The notes below the pieces were generated by a model. That model was not told where the DNA came from. It was given only the letters and a program-made list of their open reading frames with translations, and searched no databases. Source: Enterobacter cloacae (GTDB taxonomy: Bacteria > Pseudomonadota > Gammaproteobacteria > Enterobacterales > Enterobacteriaceae). From it: DNA of 64,000 nt. Shown here in pieces: positions 23,513 through 41,494 of the stretch. Position numbers and translations under genes: made by a program. The first letter of the stretch is position 1. Each line of letters opens with the position of its first letter. Where the stretch lies: positions 2,666,001 through 2,730,000 of the forward strand of contig AP022133.1 in assembly GCA_014169315.1 (NCBI GenBank), written 5' to 3'.

Positions 23513-24685
23513 ATGTTTGATTTTTCATCCGTGGTGGATCGTCACGGTACCTGGTGTACCCAGTGGGATTATGTCGCTGACCGCTTTGGAGCCGCAGACC
23601 TGCTGCCTTTCACCATCTCCGATATGGATTTCGCCACCGCCCCCTGCATTACCGACGCGCTGCACCAGCGAATCAATCACGGCGTGTTTGGCTATAGCCG
23701 CTGGAAAAACGATGAGTTTCTGGCCGCCGTCGCGCACTGGTTCCGTCAACGCTTTAACAGCCGTATCAATACCGATACTGTCGTTTACGGGCCTTCCGTT
23801 ATCTATATGGTGTCCGAACTGATTCGTCTCTGGTCAAAACCCGGCGACGGTGTCGTCGTTCATACCCCGGCGTATGATGCTTTTTATAAAGCCATCGAGG
23901 GTAATGCACGTAATGTGGTTGCAGTTGCGATGGAGAAACAGGCTACCGGCTGGCAGGGTAATATGGCCGCGCTTGAGGCCGCACTGGCAAAACCGGAAAA
24001 CAAAATCCTGCTGCTGTGCAGCCCACAAAACCCGACGGGCAAGGTATGGACGCGCGATGAACTGACCCTCATGGCAGATCTTTGCGCACGTTATGATGTG
24101 GCGGTGATCAGCGATGAAATTCATATGGACATGGTGTGGGGAGAGCATCGTCATACCCCGTGGAACGAGGTTGCCCGTGGCAAATGGGCACTGCTGACTT
24201 CCGGCTCCAAGAGTTTTAATATTCCGGCGTTGACGGGCGCATACGGCCTTATTGGCGATGACGACAGCCGTCATGGCTACCTGAGTGCGCTAAAAGGCCG
24301 TGACGGGCTCTCTTCCCCTTCCGTGCTGGCGCTGACCGCGCATATTGCCGCCTATCAACAGGGTGAGCCGTGGCTGGATGCATTGCGGGCTTACCTGGAA
24401 GAGAATTTGCGTTATATCGCTCATGAATTGAACAGTGCTTTTCCGAAATTAAACTGGCAGCCACCTGAGGCCACCTATCTTGCGTGGATTGATTTACGCC
24501 CGTTAAACATTGATGAGCAGGCGCTGCAAAAAGTGCTGATTGAGCAGGAAAAAGTCGCCATCATGCCGGGATATACCTATGGAAAAGAGGGTAACGGTTT
24601 TATTCGCCTCAATGCGGGTTGCCCGCGCAGTAAGCTGGAACAAGGGGTGAAGCGGCTTATTTCCGGGGTGAACACCCTTCTGTAA
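23513..24685 (+). CDS. malY: Cystathionine beta-lyase / maltose regulon modulator MalY
   Basis: 390-residue fold-type I PLP enzyme. It shows CSPQNPTGKVWT, ISDEIHMDMVW, and the PLP-binding lysine in TSGSKSFNIPAL. It cleaves cystathionine in vitro, and in E. coli it also binds MalT and damps the maltose regulon. It lies downstream of malX under MalI control. The ATG follows AAGGAC. Confidence 0.95.
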   Translation: MFDFSSVVDRHGTWCTQWDYVADRFGAADLLPFTISDMDFATAPCITDALHQRINHGVFGYSRWKNDEFLAAVAHWFRQRFNSRINTDTVVYGPSVIYMVSELIRLWSKPGDGVVVHTPAYDAFYKAIEGNARNVVAVAMEKQATGWQGNMAALEAALAKPENKILLLCSPQNPTGKVWTRDELTLMADLCARYDVAVISDEIHMDMVWGEHRHTPWNEVARGKWALLTSGSKSFNIPALTGAYGLIGDDDSRHGYLSALKGRDGLSSPSVLALTAHIAAYQQGEPWLDALRAYLEENLRYIAHELNSAFPKLNWQPPEATYLAWIDLRPLNIDEQALQKVLIEQEKVAIMPGYTYGKEGNGFIRLNAGCPRSKLEQGVKRLISGVNTLL

Positions 24686-34548: not shown

Positions 34549-37500
34549 CTACTTTTTCCGCGTGTCAATGAAACGCATAATCACCACATAGAAAACGGGC
34601 ACAAAGAAAACGGCGAGTAAAGTACCACTTATCATACCGCCGAAAACGCCCGTACCAATTGCGTGCTGCGTACTGTCGCTTGCTCCGCTGGCGAACATCA
34701 GTGGCACGACCCCCAGCGTAAAAGCAAGTGACGTCATGAGTATCGGCCTTAAGCGTTGCTTCGACGCAGCTAAAGTTGCCTGTATCAACGTGTGACCCTG
34801 AGCCCGTAACTGCCTCGCAAACTCTATAATCAGAATCGCATTTTTGGCAGACAGCCCTATCAGGGTTATCAGCCCCACTTTGAAAAAGACATCGTTCGTC
34901 ATATTCGCAATGGTCACAGCCAGAACCGCGCCGAGGAGCCCCAGCGGAACAACCAGCATAACCGCAAACGGAATAGACCAGCTTTCATACAGTGCCGCCA
35001 AAACCATAAACACCACTAAAATCGACAGGACAATGAGCCCCGGGAGTTGAGATGCAGACTCTTTTTCCTGTAATGAGCTGCCCGCCCATTCTCCTGCAAA
35101 ACCTGCGGGTAAACGCCCTGCCAGCGTTTCCATCTCTGCCATCGCAGTACCACTGGATCCCCCCGGAGCCGCGCTGCCGGTGATGCGTATAGCAGGATAC
35201 CCCTGATAACGATTTAACTGCTGTGGTGCGACGGCCCAGGATTGGGTCACAAATGTCGACAAGGGTACCATTTGCCCCAAGCGGTTTTTTACCGGGATGT
35301 TCAGTAACTGCTCAGGCTGCATGCGGTAAGGTGCATCGGCCTGTACAATAACCTGCTGAACCCGGCCATTATTTGTGTAGTCATTGACGTAATTTGAGCC
35401 TGTTGTGACGGAAAGCGTTTGATTAATCTCTTCAAACGACACGCTCATGGCTTCCGCCTTTTCCCTGTCCACATTAAGGGCCAGACGGGTTCCCTCCGGA
35501 AGCCCATCAATATAAACATCCGTCAATTGTGAACTCTGGTTGGCATGCCGCACGAGCTCATCCGCTGCATTTTTTAATGCCTGATACCCCTTCCCCCCTC
35601 TGTCCTGCAGGTAATAGGTAAATCCGGATGAGGTCCCCATATCGGAAATTGCCGGTGGAAGCAGGCTCATTGTGACCGCATCAGGAACAGCTTCCATTCT
35701 GGACTGGATATGGTCGGCTTCATCCTGCGCGGTGGCTCCCTTACGGTATTTCCAGTCTTTCAGCGTGGTGAAGGACATTGCCGAATTCGGCCCTGAACCT
35801 GAAAACCCAAATCCGAGGATCATGATGTTGCTTTCAATTGCCTGCCGTGACGCAATTTCATCTTCAAATGTTTTCACCACCTTCAGGGTACGCTGCATCG
35901 TGGCGTCTGCAGGCAGCTGGATAGAAGACATAAAGTAGCCTTGATCTTCGTCTGGCAGAAACGAAGAAGGTAACGAGGATAACCCGACAAACAAGGCACT
36001 ACATAATGCAGCATACAGCAGCATCATGCGCCCGGTCCGCTTCAGAACACCGCCCAGACCGGACTCATAAAAGGACGTGAGCGTGTGGAAACGTGCGTTA
36101 AACCACAACGAAAACGCATTGCCTCTGTTCTTCTGGCCAGGTGGATGAGGCTTAAGCAACGTGGCACACAGCGCAGGTGTAAGCGTTAGCGCCAGAAATG
36201 CCGATAACAAAATAGACACGGCCATAGAAATACAAAATTGCCGGTAAATGATGCCGACGGAACCGGTCGCAAAACCCATTGGAATAAATACGGCGGTGAG
36301 TACGAGCGTAATGCCTATGATTGCTGGCGTGATCTCATGCATAGCTTCCCGCGTTGCATCCCGGGGAGACAACCCTTTTTCTTCCATCAGACGTTCGACG
36401 TTCTCTACGACAACAATGGCGTCATCAACGATGATGCCAATCGCCAGCACCATACCAAACATCGTCAGAATGTTGATGGAATAACCACTTAATAGCATCA
36501 CGGTAAAGGTCCCCAGAAGTGCCACCGGTGCCACAATAGCCGGGATCAGCGTGCAACGTATCTTGTGCAGAAAAAGCAGCATCACAAGGAAGACCAGCAC
36601 CATCGCTTCAGCAAAAGTCTGCATGACTTTCAGAATTGAAAGCTTCACAAAGGGAGCGGTATCAAAGGGAACCGTAAACGCCATCCCTTCAGGAAGAACA
36701 CCTGAAAGCTCGCTAATCCGTTCGCGAATTCCCGATGCCGTGCTTATCGCATTTGCGCCAGGCGAAAGCTGGATAGCGGCTGCCGTGGCAGGTACCCCCT
36801 TCTCGCGGATGCCGAAAGCATAACTTTGCAGCCCGGACTCAACGCGAGCGATATCGGACAACTTCAGACGTGCGCCTGTCGTCTCTGACTTAATGGTGAT
36901 ATTGCGAAAAGCATCCACAGAGGAGAGCTGCCCCATCACCGTAATCGGATACGTCACCCCCTGCCCGGGTACTGTAGGCTCATCGCCCGTTCTGCCAGGT
37001 GAAACGATCATGTTTTGCTGGGCAACGGCAGTCAGTACGTCGGTGACAGAAAGGCCAAAACTGTGCAGTTTCATTGGATCCAGCCATATCCGCAGGGCTT
37101 TTTCACCGCCAAACAACTGAACTTTTCCCACGCCTGGCACCCGCCGAAGCTCATCGCTCACGTTTCTGGCAAAATAGTCGCTCAAATCTGCTTCCTGGTA
37201 CTCTCCTGTGCTGGAGGTTAACCCCACCATCATCAGAAACCCGGAATTTGCCGCCTCAACGTTAATACCGTTTTGACGAACTGCCTGAGGTAGACGGGGC
37301 TCCACAATTTTTATCTGGTTTTGCAGATCCATCTGAGCAAGTTTAATGTCTGTGCCAGGCCTGAACGTGACCGTAATAGAAGCTGTACCGCTGGTATCGC
37401 TGGAGGATTCAAAATAAAGCAAATTATCCACGCCAGAAATTTCACGTTCGATGAGTGAAACGACGGATGTGTTCATGACGTCAGGACTGACGCCAGGGTA

Positions 37501-37644
37501 ACTGACCGAAATAATGATACCAGGCGGCGCGACTGCCGGATACTGAGCGACGGGTAGACGCGGTATAGACAATATTCCAGTCAGGACGATGAACAGCGCC
37601 ACTACCCAGGCGAAAACAGGACGTTCAATAAAAAATTGTGGCAT
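34549..37644 (-). CDS. kexD: Orphan RND multidrug efflux permease (KexD/AdeB-like)
   Basis: 1031 residues, full-length HAE1-family inner-membrane transporter with 12 helices and two periplasmic loops. Seen are the N-terminal MPQFFIERPVFAWVVALFIV, the proton-relay acidic pair in helix 4 (IVDDAIVVVENVER), and the lysine helix 10 motif LSAKNAILIIEFA. It resembles AdeB and the Klebsiella KexD pump. There is no adjacent membrane-fusion protein or outer-membrane channel, so it must borrow partners such as AcrA/TolC. It lies downstream of crrC on the same strand with a 296-base gap that contains a CrrA-type box (37841). The Klebsiella homologue beside crrAB is reported to be induced by CrrB mutations. 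Confidence 0.85.
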   Translation of the reverse strand: MPQFFIERPVFAWVVALFIVLTGILSIPRLPVAQYPAVAPPGIIISVSYPGVSPDVMNTSVVSLIEREISGVDNLLYFESSSDTSGTASITVTFRPGTDIKLAQMDLQNQIKIVEPRLPQAVRQNGINVEAANSGFLMMVGLTSSTGEYQEADLSDYFARNVSDELRRVPGVGKVQLFGGEKALRIWLDPMKLHSFGLSVTDVLTAVAQQNMIVSPGRTGDEPTVPGQGVTYPITVMGQLSSVDAFRNITIKSETTGARLKLSDIARVESGLQSYAFGIREKGVPATAAAIQLSPGANAISTASGIRERISELSGVLPEGMAFTVPFDTAPFVKLSILKVMQTFAEAMVLVFLVMLLFLHKIRCTLIPAIVAPVALLGTFTVMLLSGYSINILTMFGMVLAIGIIVDDAIVVVENVERLMEEKGLSPRDATREAMHEITPAIIGITLVLTAVFIPMGFATGSVGIIYRQFCISMAVSILLSAFLALTLTPALCATLLKPHPPGQKNRGNAFSLWFNARFHTLTSFYESGLGGVLKRTGRMMLLYAALCSALFVGLSSLPSSFLPDEDQGYFMSSIQLPADATMQRTLKVVKTFEDEIASRQAIESNIMILGFGFSGSGPNSAMSFTTLKDWKYRKGATAQDEADHIQSRMEAVPDAVTMSLLPPAISDMGTSSGFTYYLQDRGGKGYQALKNAADELVRHANQSSQLTDVYIDGLPEGTRLALNVDREKAEAMSVSFEEINQTLSVTTGSNYVNDYTNNGRVQQVIVQADAPYRMQPEQLLNIPVKNRLGQMVPLSTFVTQSWAVAPQQLNRYQGYPAIRITGSAAPGGSSGTAMAEMETLAGRLPAGFAGEWAGSSLQEKESASQLPGLIVLSILVVFMVLAALYESWSIPFAVMLVVPLGLLGAVLAVTIANMTNDVFFKVGLITLIGLSAKNAILIIEFARQLRAQGHTLIQATLAASKQRLRPILMTSLAFTLGVVPLMFASGASDSTQHAIGTGVFGGMISGTLLAVFFVPVFYVVIMRFIDTRKK

Positions 37645-37840
37645 TAAATATACTTCCAGTCAGCTAACATAACGTTCAGGTAAGTCAGAATGCTCCACCC
37701 GATAAACGTCTATCGTCGTCGGTTGTTACCCGTTTACCGGGATCCCGGAGTGGCAAAATTTTTGTAAGCAGCTGCGGAATGTCATCCAGATAAAGCGACA
37801 TTCAGCATGTGTTGAGTCTACGGTGTACATGTTTAGAGTG

Positions 37841-37858
37841 TATGGGGGGTTTATGGAG
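37841..37858 (-). promoter_or_regulatory. Candidate CrrA box upstream of the RND pump gene
   Basis: On the plus strand TATGGGG-GGTT-TATGGAG: two heptamers with an 11-base period. On the gene strand this reads CTCCATA-N4-CCCCATA. It lies 197 bases before the pump start codon. It matches the boxes at 38482 and 41477 in sequence, period and orientation. Confidence 0.5.
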
Positions 37859-37940
37859 GAAATGTTGAGCCAGGCTCAGAGATCTTGCGCCCCCCTATTT
37901 AGATAAATATGTAATATCTGAATTTGTGTTACACATGCAT

Positions 37941-38333
37941 TCAAATCATTCTCATGATCAGATATAAAGGTGAGCCAATAAAAAAGATCAACAAAAAACA
38001 TTCATAGTAAAAGACCAGATCGTCTATATCTGGCGGAACATTCAGCAGCGTGGTGAAGATAAGGATAAGGTAAGCAAAAATCACCACCAAACCAAAAGTC
38101 AAAATACATAACTCCTTAAGCGCCCCTGATTTTTTTTGCGAAATGAGTAACAGAACTGACATTGATATGCAGCCATAAATCAACGGTGACGAGAGGATGG
38201 TTGACGCCACTTGCTCTTCTTCATTGTGCATCAGAACCAGCCAAAGATAGAGCAACCCCCAGGACATTAACAGGAATACAAATGAGATGCTGATTTTTCT
38301 GGATACTGCATATTTTTTAATGTTCATACTCAT
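37941..38333 (-). CDS. crrC: Small four-helix membrane protein, CrrC-like
   Basis: 130 residues with four hydrophobic helices at about 14-34, 46-64, 73-95 and 108-128, and a short basic N terminus (MSMNIKKYAVSRK). A second Met two codons in is an alternative start. In Klebsiella pneumoniae, CrrC is a small protein next to crrAB that is strongly induced by activated CrrB and in turn raises PmrAB-dependent lipid A modification. Size, position and divergence from crrA fit; I cannot confirm residue identity without a search. It has a CrrA-type box upstream (38482). Confidence 0.72.
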   Translation of the reverse strand: MSMNIKKYAVSRKISISFVFLLMSWGLLYLWLVLMHNEEEQVASTILSSPLIYGCISMSVLLLISQKKSGALKELCILTFGLVVIFAYLILIFTTLLNVPPDIDDLVFYYECFLLIFFIGSPLYLIMRMI

Positions 38334-38481
38334 TAGCGTCGAAATTTAATTAATGTGGCAAGTCATGGACAGGTTCTTTTTCCAGAAGTTCATTTGTTCA
38401 CAGAATATATCCTTCCCATCTATACCTGAATGCACGCCCTGCACACTATTACACTACAGTGTTGAGTGTTTATTTCCGTAA

Positions 38482-38499
38482 TGTGGAGCCAATGTGGAG
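38482..38499 (-). promoter_or_regulatory. Candidate CrrA box in the crrC-crrA divergent region
   Basis: Plus strand TGTGGAG-CCAA-TGTGGAG inside the perfect 9-base direct repeat AATGTGGAG-CC-AATGTGGAG (38480-38499), 11-base period. On the crrC strand it is CTCCACA-N4-CTCCACA, about 150 bases before crrC. It could also serve crrA. The rest of this 375-base divergent spacer shows no other feature. Confidence 0.55.
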
Positions 38500-38708
38500 A
38501 TACCATTCTAAATAACCTTTATCACTTACCTGATACAACAATGGAAATTTTCACTATAACTGCAACTTTTACATAAAAGGAGGGTCTGAATGCTTCATAC
38601 AGACCTGACAGGTCAAACAATGGGCGTTAATTTGCTTTTGGTATCAAATTTTTCAGCCATATACTCAGATAAGACATAGCATATATTATCCGTACAACAG
38701 GAGATAAA

Positions 38709-39413
38709 ATGAACAAAAACAACCTAATCCTGGTTGCCGAAGATGATGATGAAATCGCCGATATCCTGATGAGCTATTTACAACGTGCGGGAATGAAGAC
38801 GCTCAGGGCGGCGGATGGCGAGCTGGCAATAAGCCTTAGTCGCCTTAATAAACCCGATCTTATCTTGCTGGACATCCACCTGCCCGTGTTTGATGGCTGG
38901 AGTGTCCTGACAACGTTGCGTAAAGAAAGTAATGTTCCCGTCATTATGGTCACCGCGCTTGATCAGGATATGGATAAACTCATGGGCTTACGGCTTGGTG
39001 CTGATGATTATGTTATCAAACCCTTTAATCCTTCCGAGGTGGTTGCAAGGGTTGAAGCGGTGCTGCGCCGAACAAAACCCAACGCACAGCAGGCTGGTGC
39101 CAGACCACTCAGAACGCCATTTATTACCATCTACCCTGATGATTTCTATATTGAGATCACCGTCGGGAGTGACGTTGTTACCCCGGTACTGACAACAACC
39201 GAATTTAAGCTCCTGACTTATCTGGCCAGAAACCCGAGAAAAGTGTGTTCCCGTGAAGAATTACTTAACGCCTGCCTGCCCGAAGGCGACACGCTTGACC
39301 GAACGGTAGACAGCCACATGAGTAAACTGCGTAAAAAACTTGAACACGCAGGCCTTAAAGGGGTTCCAGAAAGTATAAGGGGGATGGGTTACCGGTTGGG
39401 TGAGAATAAATGA
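38709..39413 (+). CDS. crrA: OmpR-family response regulator CrrA
   Basis: 234 residues with AGGAG upstream. Receiver domain (about 1-120): acidic triad EDDD, phospho-Asp in LILLDIHLPVFDGW, switch residues VTALDQD, Lys in YVIKPFNP. The winged-helix DNA-binding domain (about 140-232) contains TTTEFKLLTYLARNPRKV and RTVDSHMSKLRKKLE...IRGMGYRL. It is strikingly close to AdeR of Acinetobacter and fits CrrA of Klebsiella. It overlaps crrB by four bases (ATGA). Confidence 0.85.
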   Translation: MNKNNLILVAEDDDEIADILMSYLQRAGMKTLRAADGELAISLSRLNKPDLILLDIHLPVFDGWSVLTTLRKESNVPVIMVTALDQDMDKLMGLRLGADDYVIKPFNPSEVVARVEAVLRRTKPNAQQAGARPLRTPFITIYPDDFYIEITVGSDVVTPVLTTTEFKLLTYLARNPRKVCSREELLNACLPEGDTLDRTVDSHMSKLRKKLEHAGLKGVPESIRGMGYRLGENK

Positions 39414-40477
39414 GAAAAGAGCCTATTCTGAGCCGTCAAATATTGACGTACATGCTATCGCTAACGTTCATCATCATTATTATCTCCATCGTGGGAACCT
39501 ATTTATTTTATACCTTTTTAATAGATTACATTCCGGGAGGTCTGGCATCCGGAGAAGAAGACAAGATGACCTTGCTGGACTGGTCATGGATAATCATCGC
39601 GACAACAACCAGTCTGATGATTTCCCTCTTTTTCACATTGAAATTGTCAGCAAGAATACTGACTCCGCTAAACGCTGTAGCCTATAGCCTGAAACGCATT
39701 TCACAAGGGGATCTTGATGCCAGGGCGTATTGTGCTACGTCGCAGTTGGGGGAGATAAATAACCTTGTTAATGATTTCAACGAAATGGCCGAAAAGTTGC
39801 AAACGCTGGAGGCCCAGAGACAGTCGTGGAATGCGGCTATTGCCCATGAACTCAGAACACCCGTGACGATTCTGCGGGGACGGCTTCAGGGGCTGGTAGA
39901 CGGTGTTTTTGAACCGGACGCGGCTTTGTTCAAAAATCTGCTCAAGCAAACCGAAGGGTTAACCCATCTGATTGAAGATCTCAGGGTTGTTAGCTCTTCC
40001 GGAGGAGCAGGTTATACATTATCACCCTGTGAAGTTGATCTTCAGGAAACGATAACAAGTGCGCTTGATGCCTTCGCGATGGAATTTAAAAGCAATCATT
40101 TCAATATTATAACTGAACTCAGACACCAGCACTGCGTCTGCGATCCCTTGCGCATTATTCAGTGCCTGACCGTACTCTTTGATAATGCCTTACACTATTC
40201 AACATCGAAGACACTCGTCGTGAGAAATGGCGTTACTGATAAAGAAAACTACATTCTGATTGAGGATAAGGGCCCCGGCATTCCCCAACCATTTCAGAAA
40301 TTTTTGTTCCAGCCCTTTCAGCGTGGAGAAGGCGCACGAGAAGCCAATCCCGAAGGGTGCGGGCTTGGGTTATCGGTGGTCAGAGCTATCATGTTAGCCC
40401 ACAGTGGTGATGCAAGTTACAGGCTAACGCAGCAGAATCACTCAGTATTCAGGCTGTCATGGCCAGTGGCTAAGTAA
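39410..40477 (+). CDS. crrB: Sensor histidine kinase CrrB
   Basis: 355 residues. TM1 at about 13-36, a short periplasmic loop, TM2 at about 58-78, HAMP, the H box WNAAIAHELRTPVTILRGRL with the phospho-accepting His146, then the ATPase domain with the N box (FDNALHYS), EDKGPGI and GCGLGLSVV. Residues Gln10, Tyr31, Trp140, Asn141, Pro151 and Ser195 coincide in identity and number with the positions where Klebsiella CrrB substitutions were reported to give colistin resistance (Q10L, Y31H, W140R, N141I, P151S, S195N, from memory), and all are the unmutated residues. This strongly supports the assignment. Confidence 0.88.
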   Translation: MRKEPILSRQILTYMLSLTFIIIIISIVGTYLFYTFLIDYIPGGLASGEEDKMTLLDWSWIIIATTTSLMISLFFTLKLSARILTPLNAVAYSLKRISQGDLDARAYCATSQLGEINNLVNDFNEMAEKLQTLEAQRQSWNAAIAHELRTPVTILRGRLQGLVDGVFEPDAALFKNLLKQTEGLTHLIEDLRVVSSSGGAGYTLSPCEVDLQETITSALDAFAMEFKSNHFNIITELRHQHCVCDPLRIIQCLTVLFDNALHYSTSKTLVVRNGVTDKENYILIEDKGPGIPQPFQKFLFQPFQRGEGAREANPEGCGLGLSVVRAIMLAHSGDASYRLTQQNHSVFRLSWPVAK

Positions 40478-40493
40478 CGTCAGCGACATCATG

Positions 40494-40518
40494 AAACAGG
40501 CTCATGCGAGCCTGTTTT
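40494..40518. terminator. Bidirectional terminator between crrB and the ATP-grasp gene
   Basis: AAACAGGCTC-ATGC-GAGCCTGTTTT. It overlaps the stop codon of the convergent ATP-grasp gene. Confidence 0.85.
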
Positions 40519-41416
40519 CTACTGGCGTTAAGTGCCACATCTCCCCGAGTCTGGCATCCCACTCTGACGGTGTTATTTTAAGCTTCCCGCGTTTTGGGCT
40601 TAATGTAATTTCACTGAAGTAGATTTCATCTTTGTTTAGCATAAGATCAACACGACAATAATCTATTCCCTTTGCTAACTCCTGTGATGCAGCAATGGCA
40701 TGACGAAATGATTCAGGCTCCTGAATCATATGTGGTGTATTCGGGTATTCCATCTGGAATGGTTGCAATCGCCAGGACCTATCATAAACATTGATAAAAC
40801 CTTTCCCACTATCATCGGTGAAATCTGCCTCAACGAAGCAGGCAACACCATGAAAACAATGCACCCGCAGCATTTCAGGAGTATTGTTCCTGTCCTGACC
40901 CGAAAACAAATCTATGTACTCTTCGCAGAGAATGACTGGCTTGATATTCTTATATTGCCACTCCCTCGTGGTGTAATACATATTTCGTTTTAACGCAAAT
41001 TTAAGCCTGTTCGCCGCTTTTGTGGTGTTAAATCCGTCCCGACTTGTGCAAATGACGGTGCTCCCGCAGTCATGATTACACTTCAGAACAAACTTCTCAG
41101 GTAACACGCTAAAATCGATATCTTCTGCTTTATTATAGATACCAATCAGAGGTACCGTTTTAATTTTTTGCGTTCTGGCGTGAACATACTCCCGAACCGC
41201 AAGCTTATCAGCAAGAAACGTATATAACGTGTTATGGTCAAATATCAGTCTGTGACATAGCTTTTCGTTCAGCGTTACAGGCTGCCTTAAGTTTGAAAGT
41301 TTACCTGATGATTTATAAAGTCTGGTTGTATGGAAGTGCAAGTCTGTTGTGAAAAAAGACCGCCATTTCCTGAGCAAATATTCAGCATATTTTAAATGAC
41401 CGTTAAGTTTGTTCAT
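40502..41416 (-). CDS. TupA-like ATP-grasp protein of the crr block
   Basis: 304 residues from the ATG at 41416, which has AGGAGG four bases upstream; an earlier in-frame ATG would add six residues. The sequence follows the TupA-type ATP-grasp family: DKLAVREYV, the glycine-poor KFVLKCNHDCGSTVIC loop, the REWQYKNIKPVILCEEYI strand, and the metal-site end RVDLMLNKDEIYFSEITLSPKRG. Relatives sit in polysaccharide and glycan loci and are often labelled glycosyltransferases. A glycosyltransferase-like gene beside crrAB is reported to be needed for high polymyxin resistance in Klebsiella, and this is likely its counterpart. The substrate is unknown. It has the clearest CrrA-type promoter of the block. 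Confidence 0.75.
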   Translation of the reverse strand: MNKLNGHLKYAEYLLRKWRSFFTTDLHFHTTRLYKSSGKLSNLRQPVTLNEKLCHRLIFDHNTLYTFLADKLAVREYVHARTQKIKTVPLIGIYNKAEDIDFSVLPEKFVLKCNHDCGSTVICTSRDGFNTTKAANRLKFALKRNMYYTTREWQYKNIKPVILCEEYIDLFSGQDRNNTPEMLRVHCFHGVACFVEADFTDDSGKGFINVYDRSWRLQPFQMEYPNTPHMIQEPESFRHAIAASQELAKGIDYCRVDLMLNKDEIYFSEITLSPKRGKLKITPSEWDARLGEMWHLTPVENRLA

Positions 41417-41460
41417 TGTTCCTCCTGGGCACAATGAACATTTTGCTAGCGGATGATTGA

Positions 41461-41494
41461 TTTATATTGTGCAAATTATGGAGAGGATATGGAG
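41461..41494 (-). promoter_or_regulatory. Candidate CrrA box and -10 of the ATP-grasp gene
   Basis: On the gene strand CTCCATA-TCCT-CTCCATA (41494-41477), then a 10-base gap and TATAAA (41466-41461), 45 bases before the start codon. This is the typical layout for an OmpR-family activator bound over the -35 region. Confidence 0.6.

Follow-up and report, generated by a model that had tools for sequence, protein, structure and literature searches.

In the crr block of Enterobacter cloacae, three tandem heptamer pairs upstream of kexD, crrC and a TupA-like ATP-grasp gene are very probably operators of the AdeR-box type for CrrA, the response regulator encoded in the locus itself. The earlier note on this DNA, a window of 64,000 nucleotides, had put forward TRTGGRG-N4-TRTGGRG as a candidate CrrA operator. 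Conserved sites, the match to the AdeR box and a gel shift with a CrrA orthologue speak for this proposal, whereas the novelty of the consensus, the assigned -10 and the overlap with the -35 have to be given up.

Scanning the window, we found exact matches at 37841, 38482 and 41477, all on the + strand, so that the three pairs are present as described, with their 11-bp period and common orientation towards the leftward genes. Read in that direction, each site has the form CTCCAYA-N4-CTCCAYA and would offer one half-site per helical turn. With at most one mismatch, five matches were observed in the window (shuffled sequences: mean 0.18, sd 0.46, maximum 2), the additional ones being at 24124 and at 37852, the latter a third half-repeat. 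The whole genome (4,998,275 bases, 6 contigs) contains ten matches with at most one mismatch, and its only three exact copies are those of the crr block; the motif is thus not equally common elsewhere. A reversed control pattern gave 15 genomic matches at the same threshold, so what sets the motif apart is its exact copies and the way they cluster rather than the number of one-mismatch sites. Four of the six one-mismatch sites outside the block (L004-L009) fall within open frames of at least 120 codons.

The proposed binder, crrA (38709..39413, + strand), encodes an OmpR/PhoB-type response regulator with receiver (PF00072) and winged-helix (PF00486) domains, both scoring above cut-off. The sensor kinase gene crrB (39410..40477, + strand) has AdeS as its best NCBIfam family (323 bits, below the cut-off of 500), and AdeR (NF012227) is nearest to CrrA, which at 260.8 bits against a cut-off of 340 is not itself a member. 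Among 274 class genomes NF012227 gave three matches, the window's own included, none of them above cut-off, and it gave none in 14 control genomes. The recognition helix RTVDSH-SKLR(K/R)K hardly varies across the CrrA family (leaving aside L067 and L073, whose regulators meet a stop before reaching 200 aa) and resembles that of AdeR (5x5l), from which CrrA differs at two residues.

AdeR binds its own published box at adeABC of Acinetobacter baumannii, AAGTGTGGAG-N-AAGTGTGGAG, which has the same TGTGGAG halves at an 11-bp period and likewise stands beside an OmpR-type regulator and an RND pump. The crr sites have the features of such an operator, namely two direct TGTGGAG-like halves, the 11-bp period and a position upstream of genes adjoining an AdeR-like regulator. 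The AdeR box was described at one intercistronic site, whereas the crr motif serves three separate promoters, allows both TAT and TGT, and does not conserve the AAG preceding each half of the AdeR box. In the sections of PMC11892822 consulted, a site is placed upstream of ECL_01760 (crrC) for E. cloacae AdeR_Ec (ECL_01761, i.e. crrA), hence for the same regulator at the same promoter. It lies 159 bp before the regulator gene, as does TGTGGAG-GAAG-TGTGGAG before crrA in our locus L124; the crrC-crrA gap is 308 bp in L124 versus 539 bp in that paper. Section 7 of the paper has one motif, to which L124 adds two further sites, an exact one that directly follows crrC and precedes the kexD unit, and one with a single mismatch at its ATP-grasp gene. 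According to the same sections, an EMSA showed binding of the orthologue to the DNA between crrC and crrA, the fragment being 539 bp long rather than the motif alone. The supposed lack of a published consensus therefore does not apply: both the AdeR box and a similar motif, located at crrC of E. cloacae, have been published under the name AdeR, and only under the name CrrA was none found in the portions of the literature searched. As CrrA is nearest to AdeR, the AdeR box is the same motif and the orthologue shifts its DNA, the reading of the sites as operators stands.

We compared 42 non-duplicate crr loci, Klebsiella among them; L127, L135, L136, L140 and L141 had been dropped because they show the same matches as L013, L017, L019, L020 and L021 and lie on contigs of equal length. 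A site with at most two mismatches was found at all 37 scorable ATP-grasp promoters, at 36 of 38 for crrC (the other two have three mismatches) and at 35 of 39 for kexD, where four loci are without a site. These counts leave out loci with no match reaching the gene start (ATP-grasp: L023, L024, L026, L067, L073; crrC: L030, L034, L035, L036; kexD: L030, L034, L073). Among them, scored from gene starts set by hand, L067, with a broken ATP-grasp gene, has no site there, and L073, with a broken kexD copy, has none at kexD (best five mismatches in either case); the ATP-grasp site of L073 has two mismatches. The distance from site to ATP-grasp start codon is 60-63 bp in 36 loci and 50 bp in L033. 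The motif's presence at Klebsiella crr promoters is borne out by K. pneumoniae ATCC 13883 (L018), with one mismatch at the ATP-grasp gene, one at crrC and two at kexD, and the reversed control never came below four mismatches in 82 intervals. Motif columns average 1.65-1.68 bits, a value inflated by the choice of sites for matching the motif, versus 0.23-0.29 bits for the 25 upstream positions. Conservation is also fair over the 10 positions downstream (0.90-1.00 bits). In both halves the sixth base is A across loci (TRTGGAG), so that the R proposed there is not warranted and the first-half G at 37841 is a deviation. The kexD site is absent at the short crrC-kexD gaps of L013 (40 bp), L031 (88 bp) and L033 (76 bp). 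As a rule this is broken by L126 (99 bp, with site) and L022 (205 bp, without), leaving a tendency.

On a wider scale, 17 of the 19 crrA-bearing genomes among 60 of the genus have exact TRTGGAG-N4-TRTGGAG sites (20 in total), each within 3 kb of crrA, and none of these 19 has one elsewhere. In 149 family genomes we counted 11 exact sites away from crrA (about 0.07 per genome); an exact site near crrA occurs in only two of the seven with crrA, and one of these seven, G067, has an exact site on another contig. For more remote comparisons the best 80 of 119 confirmed relatives were kept, of which 28 Enterobacterales loci entered the crr footprint and 34 others the outside set; L064, which has no upstream DNA, was left out of both, and L074-L090 received only a separate motif scan. 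Outside the Enterobacterales, 25 of the 34 loci with a CrrA-like regulator have a site with at most one mismatch within 1.2 kb upstream, and 30 shuffled heptamer pairs gave no matches at these loci. The seventeen more distant relatives L074-L090 (27-37% identity) showed no site at that threshold. An Rfam scan of the L143 intergenic stretch gave no match.

The geometry of the promoters was analysed after removal of sites with more than three mismatches and of rows at least 80% identical to a kept row, which left 26 of 37 ATP-grasp, 25 of 38 crrC and 25 of 35 kexD rows. In 72 of these 76 promoters a -10-like hexamer starts at +32 from the motif (31 bp after the strong pair), the best -10 offset in each class (ATP-grasp 3.77, crrC 4.12 and kexD 4.08 of 6). 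All three crr sites of this genome have such a hexamer, and at L004-L009 none was found at that offset. The TATAAA noted exactly 10 bases past the 41477 site is indeed there (41461-41466), and in the ATP-grasp class alone its offset, +11, scores as well as +32 (3.73 versus 3.77). At crrC and kexD, however, +11 reaches only 2.16 and 0.96, and since the +32 hexamer alone is common to all three classes, TATAAA was rejected as the general -10. With the -10 at +32, the strong repeat pair is placed upstream of the -35 region and not over it, as the earlier note had it; only weak half-sites extend to the -35. Matches to TTGACA in the three classes are poor at +9 (1.50, 1.92 and 1.76 of 6) and +10 (1.96, 2.92 at crrC, and 1.48). 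Off the motif, half-sites score best at +16 in all three classes, which suggests that the 11-bp register continues with a weaker half-site at +16 and, with less certainty, another at +5; in the ATP-grasp class the latter is unsupported, 757 of 2000 permuted words doing as well. TTGACA fits best at +17 in crrC (3.64 of 6) and kexD (3.12 of 6), so the +16 element is also -35-like and may not be a half-site.

For kexD, which encodes a KexD-like RND efflux permease of 1031 aa (34549..37644, - strand; PF00873, NF000282), the predicted operator on the - strand comprises the strong half-sites CTCCATA-AACC-CCCCATA (37841..37858), putative weak half-sites CTAAACA (37830..37836, 5/7, +5) and CACCGTA (37819..37825, 5/7, +16) and a predicted -10, CATGCT (37804..37809, 3/6). 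The corresponding - strand elements of crrC (37941..38333, - strand, 130 aa; NF051485 at 165.9 bits, above the curated cut-off of 150) are CTCCACA-TTGG-CTCCACA (38482..38499), whose halves are those of the AdeR box, CTCAACA (38460..38466, 6/7, +16) and a predicted -10, AATAGT (38445..38450, 4/6). The ATP-grasp gene (40502..41416, - strand, 304 aa; PF14305 at 138.6 bits) would be served, again on the - strand, by CTCCATA-TCCT-CTCCATA (41477..41494), a putative weak half-site ATCAATC (41455..41461, 4/7, +16) and a predicted -10, CAAAAT (41440..41445, 4/6). The pho boxes of PhoB are likewise 11-bp direct repeats of an OmpR-family activator, with a different sequence, and reach closer to the -10 than the crr strong repeats.

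Could the sites be BaeR boxes instead, with BaeR driving the crr promoters alone or beside CrrA? The BaeR consensus TTTTTCTCCATDATTGGC (PMC3799227, as far as excerpted) has the CTCCAT core in common with the crr sites, the recognition helices are related, and this envelope-stress regulator is encoded in the genome (L092, 423.4 bits versus a cut-off of 380). An exact tandem CTCCATA site, a putative BaeR target, is kept before an unrelated small gene in relatives without detected crrA, so that, given the related BaeR core, the motif alone is not specific for CrrA. By eye, the mdtA promoters of E. coli and of this genome also show a loose 11-bp CTCC/TCC repeat. The best tandem sites there, however, have at least three mismatches in the E. 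coli mdtA and spy stretches and at least two at the genome's own mdtA, and the mdtA/spy -10s sit, again by eye, at other distances. The boxes differ in the ATTGGC extension: the BaeR form CTCCATDATTGGC was not found at the crr sites, ATTGGC in that form is absent after the half-sites at 37841 and 38482, and neither ATTGGC nor the similar ATTTGC into which the 41477 site runs is conserved in orthologous crr promoters. The helices, too, are distinct (DSHIKNLRRK in BaeR, DSHMSKLRKK in CrrA), and exact sites in crrA-bearing genomes of the genus adjoin crrA. Together with the orthologue's binding and the crrB-mutant expression in the published excerpts, which favour CrrA, this led us to reject BaeR as the main binder and to regard any such role as unlikely.

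Very unlikely, in our view, is that CrrA uses the repeats to repress or autoregulate crrAB instead of activating the leftward genes. The 38482 site does stand between the divergent crrC and crrA, but the two others do not lie near the crrA start, and distance and orientation to the leftward -10 are constant across the three classes. Four crr loci lack a crrC match, and no site better than five mismatches was seen there within 400 bp upstream of crrA. The crrA orthologue of E. cloacae activates kexD and crrC (PMC9664853, PMC11892822, as excerpted). Hardly any credence can be given to coincidence, or to promoter sequences that were inherited from a common ancestor and are not bound. As the loci are related and the sites were picked for matching the motif, a motif conserved at one promoter does not count as independent evidence; yet the upstream flanks have diverged while the motif was kept, and it is common to three promoters of unrelated genes and to distant bacteria.

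Under CrrA control, a CrrA dimer would bind each strong pair head to tail, followed by the weaker half-sites at +16 (and perhaps +5) and by the -10 starting 9 bp past the +16 half-site. Given the poor -35, promoter activity should stay low as long as phosphorylated CrrA does not occupy the strong pair; once there, it may extend onto the weak pair, which spans the -35 region, and recruit RNA polymerase, so that kexD, crrC and the ATP-grasp gene would be switched on jointly by a single signal through CrrB.

The DzrR box of Dickeya, Ralstonia and Burkholderia desAB, CTCCATC-N2-A-N-CTCCAT in the published excerpts, is the reverse complement of the same 11-bp direct repeat, and its system shares an AdeR-like regulator and an RND pump target. 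The published grouping, as far as excerpted, keeps the AdeR box apart from the DzrR box; written on a common strand, the two are a single motif. DzrR reportedly works independently of phosphorylation. We lean slightly towards the view that regulators of the AdeR, CrrA and DzrR type share a promoter grammar across Proteobacteria: four CTCCAYA halves with an 11-bp period, of which the upstream two form a strong pair and the downstream two a weak one, then 9 bp and a -10, with a poor -35. The strong pair would be the described AdeR/DzrR box, and the weak pair over the -35 a second dimer site setting the activation threshold. L156 has four good halves (6, 7, 6 and 5 of 7): CTCCATC-N4-CTCCACA-N4-CTCCATC-N4-CCCCATC-N9-CACACT.

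The box itself was already known from AdeR of Acinetobacter. What is new here are the predicted operators of kexD and the ATP-grasp gene, the fixed geometry to the promoter core, the conservation, and the identity of the "different" AdeR and DzrR boxes as one motif on opposite strands. Judging by locus order, the ATP-grasp gene is probably the counterpart of the "glycosyltransferase" beside crrB in K. pneumoniae (BN373_26571, PMC6026146). We propose it as a direct CrrA target. In Klebsiella, crrB mutations lead to high-level polymyxin resistance, and expression of crrC and its neighbours is raised in a crrB mutant; a shared operator would explain this joint rise of crrC, the pump and the neighbouring "glycosyltransferase". 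Through the link between CrrA and the AdeR box, the crr locus of many Enterobacterales gains a consensus that can be put to use, with AdeR, CrrA and DzrR probably reading the same DNA word.

The crr block consists of genes for a kexD-like RND permease (34549-37644, leftward), crrC (37941-38333, leftward), crrA (38709-39413, rightward), crrB (39410-40477, rightward) and a TupA-like ATP-grasp protein (40502-41416, leftward). A shared heptamer pair, TRTGGRG-N4-TRTGGRG, had been noticed at the promoters of the three leftward genes, and our scan of the window confirms this observation: the sites at 37841, 38482 and 41477 are exact and point in the same direction, and their distances to the start codons are 197 bp (kexD), 149 bp (crrC) and 61 bp (ATP-grasp gene). 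They are also the sole exact copies in the 4,998,275-base genome. With up to one mismatch, the motif is not commoner in this genome than its reversed control (10 versus 15 matches); the non-random feature is that all exact matches are confined to one 4-kb block. At kexD, an extra half-repeat with one mismatch (37852-37869, TATGGAGGAAATGTTGAG) lengthens the site at its upstream end and brings the number of in-register halves to three.

The reading of these sites as CrrA operators is very likely right, based on the regulator's kinship with AdeR, published gel shifts and conservation of the motif. The top NCBIfam model for CrrA is AdeR (260.8 bits, below the cut-off of 340; the BaeR model reached 174.6), that for CrrB is AdeS, and the DNA-binding half of CrrA finds its best match in the AdeR chain of PDB 5x5l. 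The recognition helix, which from knowledge of the OmpR/PhoB fold we take to be DRTVDSHMSKLRKKLE, shows two differences from that of AdeR (ERTVDSHVSKLRKKLE) and five from that of the BaeR encoded in the same genome (DRTIDSHIKNLRRKLE). The SK at its centre does not vary across 26 Enterobacterales and 35 further relatives.

AdeR recognises two copies of AAGTGTGGAG that are one base apart (PMC9426577, PMC10253819, PMC10052836); this box contains TGTGGAG-N4-TGTGGAG, as does the site at 38482. In gel shifts, the E. cloacae CrrA orthologue ECL_01761 and A. baumannii AdeR both bind the crrC-crrA intergenic fragment, which has a similar motif 159 bp ahead of the regulator gene (PMC11892822). The earlier note knew of no published CrrA consensus; the box belongs to the AdeR type, which is known, and has been reported before at E. 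cloacae crrC (PMC11892822). The DzrR footprint, CGGTTCTCCATCATATCTCCATATT, is the AdeR-type repeat on the opposite strand, though the reporting paper places the AdeR and DzrR boxes in separate groups (PMC10052836). In the literature searched we found no description, which may nevertheless exist, of operators at kexD or the ATP-grasp gene, of how widely the sites are conserved, of the promoter geometry detailed below, or of a unification of the AdeR and DzrR boxes. In one locus (L124, genome G165) the crrC site agrees with the E. cloacae description, and a second exact site lies about 10 bp past the aligned crrC end, before the kexD-containing unit; section 7 of PMC11892822 considers the span from crrC to kexD a single unit and does not mention such a second site.

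Conservation was assessed starting from the best 80 of 119 CrrA relatives. The 28 Enterobacterales loci among them, 18 stretches from genus genomes and the window gave 47 loci, or 42 once five duplicates were removed. The best site before the ATP-grasp gene had zero, one or two mismatches in 3, 29 and 5 of 37 non-duplicate loci, and never more; for crrC, zero to three mismatches were found in 5, 23, 8 and 2 of 38 loci, again never more; for kexD, zero, one or two in 20, 9 and 6 of 39, none with three and four with more. Apparently broken genes were left out of these counts: with starts set by hand, the ATP-grasp copy of L067 (Leclercia adecarboxylata NCTC13032) had 5 mismatches, and the ATP-grasp and kexD copies of L073 (Enterobacter sp. 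EA-1) had 2 and 5; in both loci the crr matches come in pieces. In Klebsiella, where the earlier note proposed to look for the motif, K. pneumoniae ATCC 13883 has sites with 1, 1 and 2 mismatches at the ATP-grasp gene, crrC and kexD. In the record of this strain, the listed match to kexD spans residues 1-291 only, so the gene may be broken. A reversed control pattern in the same 82 intervals (named loci and window) never had fewer than four mismatches. Mean information was 1.65-1.68 bits in the motif columns, a figure inflated because sites were picked for matching the motif; the 25 bp upstream of it averaged 0.23-0.29 bits and the 10 bp after it 0.90-1.00. Of the 34 CrrA-like regulator loci from outside the Enterobacterales among the best 80 (48-58% identity), 25 have a site with at most one mismatch within 1.2 kb upstream; no such site came from 30 shuffled heptamer pairs. 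Two of these loci (L052, L071) have none within two mismatches in the 1.2 kb, and the 17 most distant loci among the best 80 (L074-L090) none with at most one mismatch anywhere in the stretch.

Among 149 family genomes, exact TRTGGAG-N4-TRTGGAG occurs 14 times; three copies (two in this genome, one in G062) lie less than 3 kb from crrA and 11 away from it, about 0.07 per genome. Seven of these genomes have crrA, two with an exact site beside it, and in a third (G067) the site is on a different contig. In the genus, crrA was detected in 19 of 60 genomes; 17 of these carry exact sites, 20 in all, each less than 3 kb from crrA, with none elsewhere in the 19. The 41 genus genomes without detected crrA hold 15 exact sites in 14 genomes (one of the 41, G202, probably has a broken crr locus), so CrrA is not the only reader of the motif. 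Thirteen of the 15 are nearly identical in letters. In 10 of 10 stretches retrieved, the site precedes a conserved gene for a secreted-looking protein of 77 amino acids, and in 4 of 4 gene-listed stretches a ydiY-like gene and thrS flank the site and this gene, both named from our reading of the translations. CTCCATA-N4-CTCCATA is kept about 150 bp before this gene (L143:4001-4018, also L144-L151 and L153). Here a TTGACA comes after the site, a geometry unlike that of the crr promoters. The protein had no match in a Pfam search, and its best match in the window's genome reaches 43% over 42 residues. As a guess, BaeR is perhaps the reader of this site.

Promoters were aligned on the motif and read towards the gene, keeping rows less than 80% identical (26 ATP-grasp, 25 crrC, 25 kexD). 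Of 79 offsets, +32 gave the top TATAAT match in each class separately, narrowly so for the ATP-grasp class (3.77 versus 3.73 at +11); the hexamer there has A at the second plus T at the sixth position in 25/26, 24/25 and 23/25 rows, respectively. In the non-redundant set of 17 relatives from outside the order, +32 shared first place (11/17; +1 had 11, +19 had 10). The predicted -10 elements are CATGCT (37804-37809) for kexD, AATAGT (38445-38450) for crrC and CAAAAT (41440-41445) for the ATP-grasp gene. All three crr sites carry this signature; of the six one-mismatch sites that this genome has beyond the block, none does.

Beyond the motif, each class has its top half-site at +16; in the outside-order set +5 and +16 lead, and both offsets fall in the 11-bp register. 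The +16 score was matched by 46 (ATP-grasp), 7 (crrC) and 10 (kexD) of 2000 permuted heptamers, the +5 score by 17 (crrC) and 27 (kexD); at the ATP-grasp class, where 757 reached it, +5 is not supported. The +16 element could instead be a -35-like word at +17, which scores 3.64 of 6 for crrC and 3.12 for kexD, but the -10 peak that should then appear at +39 to +42 is absent (maximum 2.64). At the proper distance from +32, the -35 match is poor (1.50-1.92 of 6 at +9; 2.92 at +10 for crrC). The geometry points to an activator-dependent promoter: the strong operator pair would occupy about -44 to -61, and weaker half-sites would reach down to the -35 region. Since the weak halves in the window match only modestly (at +16, 4, 6 and 5 of 7 for the ATP-grasp gene, crrC and kexD; at +5, 2, 3 and 5), the claim is soft at any single promoter and draws its weight from the promoter sets. 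An AdeR-like locus in a genome of the same taxonomic class (L156:1373-1427) has four good half-sites in a row, then 9 bp, then CACACT.

The E. cloacae crrA orthologue is described as an activator of kexD and crrC (PMC9664853, PMC11892822). Three genes rise, by as much as 9 log2 units, when K. pneumoniae is selected with colistin: crrC, an efflux gene and a glycosyltransferase gene next to crrB. Without colistin, a crrB S93N mutant had crrC up more than 256-fold and the other two 2-4-fold; in the presence of colistin, the increase was about 256-fold for both crrC and the glycosyltransferase gene (PMC6026146). Judging from locus order, this glycosyltransferase should be the counterpart of the ATP-grasp gene, and the trio raised by colistin would then be the same three genes that bear the putative operator.
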